From Pseudomonadota bacterium (GTDB lineage Bacteria > Pseudomonadota > Gammaproteobacteria > Steroidobacterales > Steroidobacteraceae): a DNA stretch of 46,190 nt. The position numbers and the translations under genes are program-made. Of the stretch, positions 5,416 through 36,925 are shown one piece after another. The stretch lies in contig JAJZMI010000087.1 in the NCBI GenBank assembly GCA_021798335.1, forward strand, positions 1 through 46,190. Reading direction: 5' to 3'. The notes under the pieces are model-generated. The model was not told the origin of the DNA. It searched no databases and worked only from the letters and a program-made list of their open reading frames with translations. Every line of letters begins with the position of its first letter. Position 1 is the first letter of the stretch.

Positions 5416-6639
5416 ATGAAGCGCGCCAACATCAGAGTCATCTTCGCGGTCTGTCTGTCCGTCGCCGGGCTTGCGGGCGCTCCGTGCCCGCGGGCCGCCG
5501 CCGCCCCCGCCGCTTTGCCGGTACCGGTCCAGACCGAGCGGTTCGTGCTCGCGCCGGGACAGGAGATGATCGGCCGCGTGCAGATCGTGCGGATCAAACC
5601 GCACCAGGTCCTCGCCGACATCGCCCGCCTGTTCGATGTCGGCTACGACTCGATCAAGCGCGCCAATCCCAAGGTCAACCCGTGGCTCGCTCCGGTGGGC
5701 ACGCGCGTGATCGTGCCGACGCAGTTCATCCTCCCGGATGCGCCACACGTGGGTATCGTGGTCGATATCGCCGCGATGCGGCTGTTCTACTACCCGCCGC
5801 ACGCGCCGGGGCGGCCGCAAGTCGTCATCACGCATCCGGTCGGGATCGGCAGGCTCGGCCACCCCACGCCGACGATGGTGACACGCGTCACCTGGCACCA
5901 GGCGCATCCCGCGTGGATCGTGCCGCGCTCGATCCTCGCCTCGCATGCCCGCCGCGGCACGCCGCTCCCGCGGGTGGTCGCGGCCGGTCCGGACAACCCG
6001 CTCGGCAACTACGCACTGCACCTGAGTTATCCGGAGATCCTCATTCACGGTACCGACAGACCGGCCGGAGTCGGACGGCGCGTCAGCCACGGCTGCATTC
6101 ACCTGTACCCGGAGGACATCCGACAGCTCTTCAAGATGGTGCCGAACGGCACGCCGGTGCGTGTCGTCAATCAGCCGTTCCTGTTCGCCTGGCAGAACGG
6201 GCGCCTGTACATGCAGGCCTACGGTGCGTTGCAGGATGACAAGCGGCCGTGGAAGACGGACCCCACGCTGCTGAGGCGCATGTTGCCCCGCCGGTGGGTC
6301 ACCGACCTCACGCGCTCGGACGAGAAGATCGATTGGACGCGGGTGCGGCGCCTGGTGGACGATCCCAGGGTCGTGCCGCTGCCGGTTTCGGGCCGGGGCC
6401 CGGTGCCCGGGGGAATGGTGGCGACCCTGGTGCAAAACCGTCTGCCCCTGGGGTCGGCGTGGAATGGCCGGACGCATCTGCCGCTCACGACCGCCCAATT
6501 CGACAAGGTTCTGAACCAGATCCGTTCGAGGGCGACGCCGAAGGACCCCGCGGCCGCCGATCCTCCCGGAGCCGCGCTCACCGGCAAGGTGTCCGCGCGG
6601 CGCGCCGTCCAGAGGCTCCGGTCACACCGGGCGCTGTGA
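5416..6639 (+). CDS. Secreted L,D-transpeptidase (ErfK/YbiS/YkuD family)
   Basis: A 407-aa exported protein. An N-terminal signal peptide (MKRANIRVIF... then an Ala-rich cleavage region at about 30) is followed by a LysM-like segment (about 52-100, IKPHQVLADIARLFDV ... GTRVIVPT) and a YkuD domain (about 108-240). The catalytic signature is HGTD followed by SHGCIHLYPEDI, which contains the nucleophilic Cys. Such enzymes form 3-3 peptidoglycan crosslinks or attach Braun-type lipoprotein. The last 160 or so residues are Pro/Arg-rich and outside the catalytic fold. The start is fixed by the signal peptide. The sheath gene begins 70 nt downstream on the same strand. Confidence 0.9.
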   Translation: MKRANIRVIFAVCLSVAGLAGAPCPRAAAAPAALPVPVQTERFVLAPGQEMIGRVQIVRIKPHQVLADIARLFDVGYDSIKRANPKVNPWLAPVGTRVIVPTQFILPDAPHVGIVVDIAAMRLFYYPPHAPGRPQVVITHPVGIGRLGHPTPTMVTRVTWHQAHPAWIVPRSILASHARRGTPLPRVVAAGPDNPLGNYALHLSYPEILIHGTDRPAGVGRRVSHGCIHLYPEDIRQLFKMVPNGTPVRVVNQPFLFAWQNGRLYMQAYGALQDDKRPWKTDPTLLRRMLPRRWVTDLTRSDEKIDWTRVRRLVDDPRVVPLPVSGRGPVPGGMVATLVQNRLPLGSAWNGRTHLPLTTAQFDKVLNQIRSRATPKDPAAADPPGAALTGKVSARRAVQRLRSHRAL

Positions 6640-27910: not shown

Positions 27911-28594
27911 CTAGATCGTCTCCGTGCCGGTTTCCGTGCCGACCAGCAGCAGGTCCGCCGGCCGCAGCGCAAACAATCCCACGGTGACCACGCCCGTGAT
28001 GGCATCGAGCTCGCGCTCGAGCGCCGGGGGATCGCCGATCGGCAGTCCATGCACGTCGATGATCTGGTTGCCGTTGTCGGTCACGAAGCCCCGACGCCAC
28101 ACCGCGCGGCCGCCCCGCGCCTCGATCGCGCGTGTCACCAGCGCGCGCGCCATCGGAATGACCTCGATCGGCAGGGGAAACGCTCCCAGAGCCTCGGCGA
28201 GCTTGCCGTCATCGATGATGCACACGAAGCGCTCGGCAGCCGCTGCCACGATCTTCTCGCGCGTGAGCGCGCCGCCCCCACCCTTGATCAAGTGCCGGGC
28301 ACGGGTGGCCTGGTCGGCTCCGTCGATGTACAGATGTACCGTGCCGACCTCGTTGAGGTCGAGCACCTCGATGCCGGCGGCGCGCAGCAGGGCGCTGGTC
28401 GCTTCGGAACTCGACACGGCCGCCTGGATCAACCCCGGTTGCCCGGCCAGCGCCTCGATGAAATACGCCACGGTCGAGCCGGTTCCCACGCCGAGCACGC
28501 TGCCCGACTCGACGTAGTGCAGCGCGGTCTGCGCGCAGCGGCGCTTCTTGGCGCGGACCTCGTCCTGTGTCGGACCGGTTGTGGGCTGTGTCAC
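27911..28594 (-). CDS. rpiA: Ribose-5-phosphate isomerase A
   Basis: A 227-aa enzyme interconverting ribose-5-P and ribulose-5-P. The GTG at 28594 is chosen since the upstream in-frame part reads through repeat-like hairpin DNA. Motifs: [45 protein letters not shown] and [11 protein letters not shown]. It lies 10 nt from the convergent YihY-type gene. Together with rpe it covers the reversible pentose-phosphate steps that supply PRPP for the nearby pur genes. Confidence 0.94.
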
Positions 28595-28620
28595 GGACTT
28601 TCCCGGGGCTGGAAACGAAT

Positions 28621-28640
28621 GTGCCCGCTTGCGCGGGCAC
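28621..28640. repeat. REP-like inverted repeat
   Basis: GTGCCCGC-TTGC-GCGGGCAC, a perfect 8-bp stem, followed by GAGGGCATCG. The sequence resembles short extragenic palindromes common in GC-rich proteobacteria. A genome-wide copy number count would decide. Confidence 0.4.
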
Positions 28641-28699: not shown

Positions 28700-28753
28700 T
28701 CACTTCTTCTTTGCAGCTTTCTTCTTCGCGGCCTTCTTCTTTGCCTTCGCCAT
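28700..28753 (-). CDS. 17-residue Lys/Ala-rich peptide
   Basis: Too short for the ORF track. The minus strand reads MAKAKKKAAKKKAAKKK then TGA. Its three KKKAA-like repeats resemble the DNA-binding tails of bacterial histone H1-like proteins. Support for expression: GGAGAG 7 nt upstream of the ATG and a TTGTAT-16 nt-TATACT promoter giving a leader of about 30 nt, then a UUCG hairpin downstream. Net charge is about +11. It could be a stand-alone nucleic-acid-binding peptide. Alternatively it is the vestige of a longer protein, though no frame continues it upstream. Confidence 0.55.
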   Translation of the reverse strand: MAKAKKKAAKKKAAKKK

Positions 28754-28789
28754 GTTGGCTCTCCAATTGTCGGGTTAGTCCGAGGGCCG

Positions 28790-28817
28790 AGTATATACAT
28801 GCGAGGCAAAAATACAA
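28790..28817 (-). promoter_or_regulatory. Promoter of the KA-rich peptide gene
   Basis: -35 TTGTAT (28817-28812), 16-nt spacer, -10 TATACT (28795-28790), with an AT-rich context unusual for the window. Rest of 28754-28976: no other feature seen. Confidence 0.55.
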
Positions 28818-28976: not shown

Positions 28977-29600
28977 TCACGGCACGCCGCGGATGCGGGC
29001 GCAATGGATGACCCCCCGCTCGGTTAGCACCATGTCGAGCGGTACGTCGTGCGCGGCGCGCGCGATGTAGTCGCGCTGCTGCACGGCATAAGCGAGTCCG
29101 ACGAGCAGGGGTCTGTGCTCCGGGGCGCGCGTGCGGCAAAACGCCAGTGCGCGATCGTAGTAGCCGCCGCCCATGCCGAGCCGGGTGCCACGGCGGTCGA
29201 AGCCGACGAGGGGCAGAAAAATGATGTGCAACGGGCGCGCATCAGGCAGTGCCGACCCTTGCGGCTCGGCGATGCCGAATCGGTTGCGGCGCACGCGCGT
29301 GCCGATCGGCGCGAACTGCATGGATCGTGCCGAACCACGCGCACCGATGCGTGGCAGGTAGACGCGACAGCCCCGTCGGCGCGCCATCGCGATCAACTCG
29401 GAGGTATCGAGTTCTTCGGGCAGGGCGGCGTACAGCCCGATGCGCCATCCCCGCCGCAACCGCAGCACGCGCACGGCACGGAGCGCGACGCTGCGTGCGG
29501 CGCGCGCGCGTTGCAGATCGGGAATGCTGCGGCGCGCCTGGCGCAGCACGGTCCGCAAGGACTCGCGGCCGTGCTCGGGGGTGCAATCAGGGAGCGTCAC
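28977..29600 (-). CDS. fau: 5-formyltetrahydrofolate cyclo-ligase
   Basis: A 207-aa enzyme (YgfA) that returns 5-formyl-THF to 5,10-methenyl-THF using ATP. The conserved C-terminal signature is GMGGGYYDRAL, with IIFLPLVGFDRRGTRLG before it; RVYLPRIG is the mid-domain block and the basic N-terminus RQARRSIPDLQRARAA is typical. The start is taken as GTG 29600 with AGGCGG immediately upstream (spacing poor); the track start 29735 reads through the structured RNA region. The conserved gene order zapA-6S RNA-ygfA supports the call. Confidence 0.85.
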   Translation of the reverse strand: MTLPDCTPEHGRESLRTVLRQARRSIPDLQRARAARSVALRAVRVLRLRRGWRIGLYAALPEELDTSELIAMARRRGCRVYLPRIGARGSARSMQFAPIGTRVRRNRFGIAEPQGSALPDARPLHIIFLPLVGFDRRGTRLGMGGGYYDRALAFCRTRAPEHRPLLVGLAYAVQQRDYIARAAHDVPLDMVLTERGVIHCARIRGVP

Positions 29601-29652
29601 CCGCCTGTGCCGGTGCGGGCCGTTGCTCTCGAACCGGAGCAACAGGTGGGAC

Positions 29653-29786
29653 GAGCTGCGGCAGGTAAGGCTTTCCGCCCGGGGCGGACCTGCACAATTC
29701 TGCCGACAAGCCCAGAAGTCCCATGGGTGTTTCAATTAGGGTCCGAGGTAACCCGACCCACGTGTCGAGCACCGCAGGCGACGCTC
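29653..29786 (-). ncRNA. ssrS: Candidate 6S RNA (by position and pairing)
   Basis: The 232-nt gap between zapA and the cyclo-ligase is where gammaproteobacteria encode 6S RNA, the RNA polymerase-binding regulator. The minus strand shows long-range pairing: GAGC...CTGCGG near 29786 with CCGCAG-CTC near 29653. Inside are local stems GGGTC/GACCC and GCAGGT/ACCTGC enclosing CCGCC/GGCGG. I could not identify the classic central bubble sequence by eye, so the boundaries and identity are tentative. Confidence 0.42.
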
Positions 29787-36525: not shown

Positions 36526-36689
36526 GGGAACCTGCCAGTGACGGGGTGGGCCGTGGAGCCAGGCGATTTTACCGGGCCGGGCCGCCGGCCGCGACCACCG
36601 CCGCGGGCCGGGCGTCCCTCGCCCCGGGCATGCGCGGCGCAGACTCCAATCCAGCCCTAAGACTGGTATCATTGCCGGGTCTCGTCAAT
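36526..36689. other. Leader and spacer between ispG and the glycine riboswitch
   Basis: No gene. It holds the divergent promoters of ispG and the gcv operon; no hexamer pair is clear. Confidence 0.4.
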
Positions 36690-36899
36690 CCGTCTGCACG
36701 GAGAGGGCCCGGCGTGCCGCCGGGACGCCGAAGGCGCAATTTCCGCCCGGAAACGCTCAGGCACACGAACGGCAGATGATGCAGGCGATCGCTGCGCCTG
36801 CGCGGGATCTCTGGAGAGCGGCGGACGCCTCGCGGCGCCGGCCCACCGAAGGGGAGAGGCGCACTTGCGCCCGATCTCTCAGGTCACCGGACAGAGGGG
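36690..36899 (+). promoter_or_regulatory. Tandem glycine riboswitch
   Basis: Two aptamers in series. The first has GGAGAG (36700), ACGCCGAAGGCGCAA and CGCTCAGGCACACGAAC. The second has CTCTGGAGAG (36808-36819), CCACCGAAGGGG, TCTCTCAGGTCACCGGACAGAGGG. These are the conserved core elements of the glycine aptamer. A terminator hairpin follows, so glycine binding should turn the operon on by preventing termination. Confidence 0.93.
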
Positions 36900-36925
36900 C
36901 GGCAGGCTGGGCCTGCCGTTTTTTT
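36900..36925 (+). terminator. Riboswitch expression-platform terminator
   Basis: CGGCAGGC, loop TGG, GCCTGCCG, then seven T. It directly follows the second aptamer and precedes the gcvT ribosome site. Confidence 0.85.

Follow-up and report, generated by a model that had tools for sequence, protein, structure and literature searches.

The window, by which we mean the whole stretch of 46,190 nucleotides that was analysed, belongs to a gammaproteobacterial assembly that is 80% complete (G000:C25). It contains a small transcription unit lying entirely on the minus strand, with fau upstream and rpiA downstream on the same strand (Table 1). The gene zapA is also located upstream on the minus strand, beyond the 6S RNA and fau. 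A sequence-only reading of this DNA had proposed a TTGTAT-N16-TATACT promoter, a GGAGAG ribosome site and a 17-residue Lys/Ala ORF, and all three are present, on the minus strand. The encoded peptide consists of 10 Lys and 6 Ala among its 17 residues, without acidic residues. The unit is probably monocistronic, being composed of promoter, leader, 17-codon ORF and terminator hairpin. That gene callers should overlook an ORF of 54 nt is plausible.

Table 1. Genes and features around the peptide unit (feature, position in the window, strand, remarks).
6S RNA (ssrS)	29594..29783	-	within the conserved upstream array zapA-ssrS-fau
fau/ygfA (5-formyltetrahydrofolate cyclo-ligase)	28977..29567	-	conserved upstream neighbour; start approximate
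Promoter	28790..28817	-	TTGTAT 28817-28812, 16-nt spacer, TATACT 28795-28790; conserved in relatives
5' leader to start codon, with Shine-Dalgarno GGAGAG 28764-28759	28754..28789	-	
ORF MAKAKKKAAKKKAAKKK	28700..28753	-	ATG 28753-28751, 17 codons, TGA stop 28702-28700; codon-level conservation
Hairpin 1, TTCG loop	28663..28690	-	12-bp stem including U-G and C-G pairs; 10 bp perfect at 28688-28665
Hairpin 2 GTGCCCGCGCAAGCGGGCAC and tail ATTCGTTTCC	28611..28640	-	probable intrinsic terminator
rpiA (ribose-5-phosphate isomerase A)	27911..28594	-	conserved downstream neighbour; GTG start at 28594 is a guess

The longest fau ORF begins at a TTG at 29735, and its 5' part is overlapped by the 6S RNA. 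Because of this overlap we consider that start to be wrong, and the true one is probably near 29567. The zapAB-ssrS-fau-EVE neighbourhood, in which rpiA is often present, has been proposed to form a growth-state switch, and the passages of that paper dealing with the neighbourhood make no mention of a histone-like gene (PMC7641849). Some members of the window's genus leave no room for an EVE gene between fau and the peptide, and they retain the peptide. A literature search, outside which most subscription journals lay, returned nothing about histones in Steroidobacteraceae or about an association of histone-H1-like genes with rpiA.

In a simple sigma-70 scan of the window, the score of the promoter was not above threshold. 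It is nonetheless conserved across genera, and its boxes are kept across Steroidobacteraceae as TTGCTTG(T/C) and TGTATATACTC. The leader, CGGACTAACCCGACA-GGAG (alignment A1), is likewise conserved across genera and is recognisable across the families of the order, where it takes the form CGGACA(A)CCCGACA-GGAGA. Such conservation exceeds the need of a plain Shine-Dalgarno region. The leader may form a weak 5' CGG..CCG hairpin.

Two hairpins follow the ORF, and folding gave them as independent structures; alternative antiterminator pairing was not seen in a non-exhaustive look. The perfect 10-bp stem capped by UUCG does exist as claimed, just outside the stated positions 28700-28817. Within the genus this hairpin 1 is well maintained, with 99.6% of cells paired and four pairs changed on both sides, but in several other genera it is different or missing while the peptide stays. 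For this reason we regard it as an accessory of the 3' UTR. Its UUCG loop is not conserved, relatives having GAAA, GCAA, CCAG or others. Hairpin 2, with a stem-loop at 28640-28621 (GTGCCCGC-GCAA-GCGGGCAC), is the better terminator candidate. The elements of a complete small unit are all there, as had been proposed, but the likely terminator is hairpin 2 and the UUCG loop is incidental.

In order to describe the distribution of the peptide, loci were sampled via rpiA, independently of the peptide itself, and counted only where the upstream sequence was long enough. Either MAKAKKKAAKKKAAKKK or a 16-residue variant was found at 28/28 such loci of the same genus. In other Steroidobacteraceae genera, which lack the exact start of MAKAKKKAAKKKAAKKK, a Lys-rich peptide of 14-26 aa lay between fau and rpiA at 29/29 loci (for example MATKKKAAKKKATKKKAAKKK and MAKKKAKKKAAKKK). 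A pattern scan for the short form, using one genome per species in about 85,000 species, yielded 95 stretches. Among the 80 matches listed of these 95, 79 were placed between fau and rpiA as far as the contigs reach, the locus being recognised by fau upstream and/or rpiA downstream. Where the title of a listed match named a family, it was Steroidobacteraceae, except for one Nevskiaceae. It is from these titles that we take the window to be of the same family. One listed match is labelled Klebsiella pneumoniae and has the same locus; this label is probably wrong. The sole off-locus match among the 80 listed (L146, contig DSCG01000041) comes from a MAG named as an archaeon. There, the 17-aa peptide MAKAKKKATKKKATKKK, which is nearly identical, is encoded by an ORF at 6077-6130. 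Its surroundings are unrelated, promoter, leader, fau and rpiA all being absent from them. This is a case of convergence or of chance.

Metagenome contigs were repeatedly seen to end at the peptide unit (G102, G194, G229; pairs L111/L136, L116/L150 and L085/L147), an identical short sequence terminating two contigs of one assembly. Such breaks are as expected if near-identical copies are present in co-resident species.

The 17-aa form is encoded by 14 distinct DNA sequences. Compared in pairs, these show 455 codon differences, which are counts of non-independent events. Every one of them is synonymous, and their distribution over the three codon positions is 0/0/455. Over 83 distinct ORFs, the 897 AAN codons ended in G or A only (724 and 173, respectively), with no AAC or AAT, and GCN codons used all four third bases. 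Length changes among the short ORFs consisted of whole codons, and stop codons varied: TAA or TGA in the 17-aa form, and TAA, TAG and TGA over all variants. Since the sequences used in the codon test were gathered as Lys-rich ORFs, we give weight to the sample anchored on rpiA and to the pattern at third positions. ORFs of 10-41 codons in which Lys makes up 50% or more were also counted in the window and in 20 order-1 Markov simulations: one was present in the window, and none in each of the simulations. The Lys-rich short ORF is no chance product of the window composition. The peptide gene claimed by the sequence-only reading was thus upheld when conservation of codons was compared with conservation of DNA in relatives, the frame being conserved, the changes synonymous and the stop codons changing. 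As far as sequence comparison can tell, MAKAKKKAAKKKAAKKK is a real protein-coding gene under codon-level purifying selection, and it is presumably translated.

At most loci from other families of the order, the place between fau and rpiA is taken by an ORF of 75-201 aa built from the units of the short peptide (MATKKKSRKKASKRKVAKKRK... and MATKKKSRKKASKRKVAKKRKVTRKKAAPKKRVAKKK... are examples). These loci were again anchored on rpiA; some were cut by contig ends, and at three of them (L069, L078, L080) the long ORF was absent. Upstream of the long ORFs stand the TATACTC promoter and the CGGAC..CCCG..GGAG leader, as they do before the short ones. Behind several of them stands the terminator GTGCCCGC..GCGGGCAC-TTTTTTTT, of which hairpin 2 is the counterpart in place and in sequence; the tail of hairpin 2 is poorer in T than that of several long orthologs. 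When the class was searched with a model built from the promoter and leader sequences, further long Lys-rich genes came up across it, most of them beside fau or rpiA. An independent, fau-anchored sample of the class had a Lys-rich ORF of 65-164 aa nearby in 9 of 28 non-family loci. Altogether, the ORF measures 14-26 aa in Steroidobacteraceae versus 65-201 aa in all non-family members seen, and among the complete ORFs seen none was of intermediate length (27-64 aa).

These observations support the view that the 17-aa peptide is a shrunken ortholog of a Lys-rich, H1-like protein, amounting to about three KKKAA/KKKVA units. Since the signal in 17 residues of low complexity is too small, homology rests here on the locus, the promoter, the leader, the terminator and the repeat unit. 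Shrinkage is the parsimonious direction, because long forms occur in many families and short ones in a single family only. If the fau-rpiA-linked Lys-rich proteins are defined as an ortholog group, the peptide shares their location and their promoter and leader, but it falls short of about 65 aa, the minimum length of all non-family members seen; orthology does not require this length. The proposal of an H1-type tail without a globular part gains from the long H1-like orthologs that have the same locus and leader. However, these are likewise all tail, and therefore no globular domain was lost at the fau-rpiA locus.

The nearest family with a name is HC2 (histone H1-like). Of five long orthologs tested, one matched it weakly, with an E value of 8.7e-8 that is below the curated cut-off; the profiles were PF07382, NF038053 and NF038052, each below cut-off. 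The 17-aa peptide being itself too short for a profile search, a 22-aa stand-in was used, and it gave no match.

Known proteins offer several points of comparison. Hc2 of Chlamydia (165-237 aa) and BpH1 of Bordetella (182-206 aa) have Lys/Ala-rich pentamer repeats, and their length varies by repeat units (PMC2848022). The locus described here resembles them by its Lys/Ala-rich repeats and by the one long ortholog weakly matching the Hc2 profile (Pfam PF07382), but the peptides of the window's family are 14-26 aa long and at a different locus, and the 22-aa stand-in gave no family-profile match. The C-terminal domains of AlgP and PhaF in Pseudomonas are also disordered, Lys/Ala-rich, H1-like tails; theirs is a tail on another domain, whereas the Steroidobacteraceae peptide is the tail alone. 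DNA binding in vitro has been shown for peptides of the AlgP KPAA repeat, and the protein itself is associated with polyphosphate granules (PMC9239181). The AlgP-type architecture, an N-terminal helical domain followed by a KPAA tail, was not found here: the peptide has 17 residues, no N-terminal domain and no proline, and proline occurs in none of the short forms seen. A further comparison is with the gammaproteobacterial Lys-rich proteins between fau or EVE and rpiA, for which we found no family name, and which share place, promoter, leader, terminator and KKKxA units with the peptide; they differ from it by their 65-201 aa, against 14-26 aa. Small size and basicity also bring to mind ScvA, which has about 30 aa and a composition different from that of the Steroidobacteraceae peptide. 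ScvA and Hq1, very small basic DNA-binding proteins from the gammaproteobacterium Coxiella burnetii, are enriched in its non-growing cell form (PMC4766238).

We think it likely that the locus holds a protein-coding microgene for a free polycation, orthologous to the long H1-like protein that many Gammaproteobacteria encode between fau (with or without an EVE gene) and rpiA, and cut down in Steroidobacteraceae, a family living in soil and water. The microgene would give rise to a free, disordered peptide of net charge about +10 that binds polyanions by charge; the most likely targets would be nucleoid DNA and RNA, and ribosomes or polyphosphate would be possible ones. Comparison with AlgP and Hc2 makes such charge-based binding of DNA, RNA or polyphosphate likely. 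Binding might then modulate compaction or storage, and the action of the peptide may perhaps be tied to the growth-state switch of the neighbouring 6S RNA and fau. The function could also have changed, as binding to nucleic acid is expected to be much less cooperative for a peptide of charge +10 than for an array of 150 residues. Given that the leader and a hairpin are conserved too, roles at the RNA level may exist as well.

A more specific reading is offered tentatively, and we hold it to be somewhat doubtful: the H1-like nucleoid protein of Steroidobacteraceae may have been reduced to a bare polycation of 14-26 residues, still acting independently, and in connection with the growth state, to condense DNA, RNA or polyphosphate or to compete for them. 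If this is true, the peptide would be among the shortest free-standing histone-like proteins, and neither an array nor a folded domain would be needed beyond a few KKKAA units. An H1-like protein cut to about three repeat units, and then kept under strong selection, makes it testable how short a histone-like tail can be and still function. The gene lies below the usual annotation size; its reality could be established, and its ancestry seen, from DNA comparisons alone. With it, the conserved zapA-6S RNA-fau-rpiA neighbourhood gains a Lys-rich gene still without a name.

It is also conceivable, if rather unlikely, that the gene is the same but the partner of its product is not chromosomal DNA: the peptide would be a tiny basic protein associated with the ribosome or rRNA, or with polyphosphate granules. 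A structural or RNA-bound peptide fits the small size, the Lys-richness and the strong purifying selection, and the H1-like AlgP does associate with polyphosphate granules in Pseudomonas aeruginosa (PMC9239181). However, a repetitive KKKAA sequence varying in length from 14 to 26 aa is unlike position-specific ribosomal peptides. Loss of function altogether, the ORF being a decaying remnant of the long gene, has next to no likelihood. The peptide is indeed much shorter than its orthologs, but start, frame, repeat, promoter and leader are intact in every adequately assembled Steroidobacteraceae locus sampled, and the 17-aa form shows synonymous change only.

To two further readings we grant very little likelihood, marginally less to the second than to the first. 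A regulatory leader peptide, in which passage of the ribosome over ten Lys codons would control the hairpins and hence readthrough into rpiA, accords with a tiny ORF, two hairpins and the constant presence of rpiA downstream in Steroidobacteraceae, as well as with the T-poor tail of hairpin 2 relative to several long orthologs. Yet the orthologs in the same place are proteins of 65-201 aa and not leader peptides, several genera that retain the peptide lack hairpin 1 or have a different one, and the non-exhaustive look at folding gave no antiterminator. In one relative (L049), moreover, the rpiA match is about 470 nt from the peptide start, versus about 190 otherwise. RpiA is not known to be linked to lysine, which we also count against this explanation. 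The second reading takes a structured small RNA as the functional product and the ORF as incidental. The highly conserved leader and the paired changes of hairpin 1 speak for it, but differences in the ORF obey the genetic code (synonymous only in the 17-aa form, A or G only at the third position of Lys codons, whole-codon indels, changing stop codons), and between genera it is the 3' hairpin region that has diverged, not the peptide.

An HC2-like match in the window's genome was also considered, in a PF07382 search that was insensitive. Judged by eye, the matched protein is glyoxalase-like, bears a basic tail and is not an H1-like protein; it lies at 1495-2823 of L232 (G000 contig C193), and its C-terminal tail is long, Lys/Arg/Ala-rich and of H1 type. 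A whole-genome search with a long ortholog, in which positive-control genomes failed, led to a second Lys-rich H1-like ORF of about 98 aa (MATKRKVSKKKAGAKRKVAK...), far from fau-rpiA, at about 1498-1791 of L268 (G084, C1 near 195,600). This genome is that of a family member also carrying the short peptide. Elsewhere in the window, two RF00504 matches mark tandem glycine riboswitch aptamers at 36688-36904 on the plus strand.
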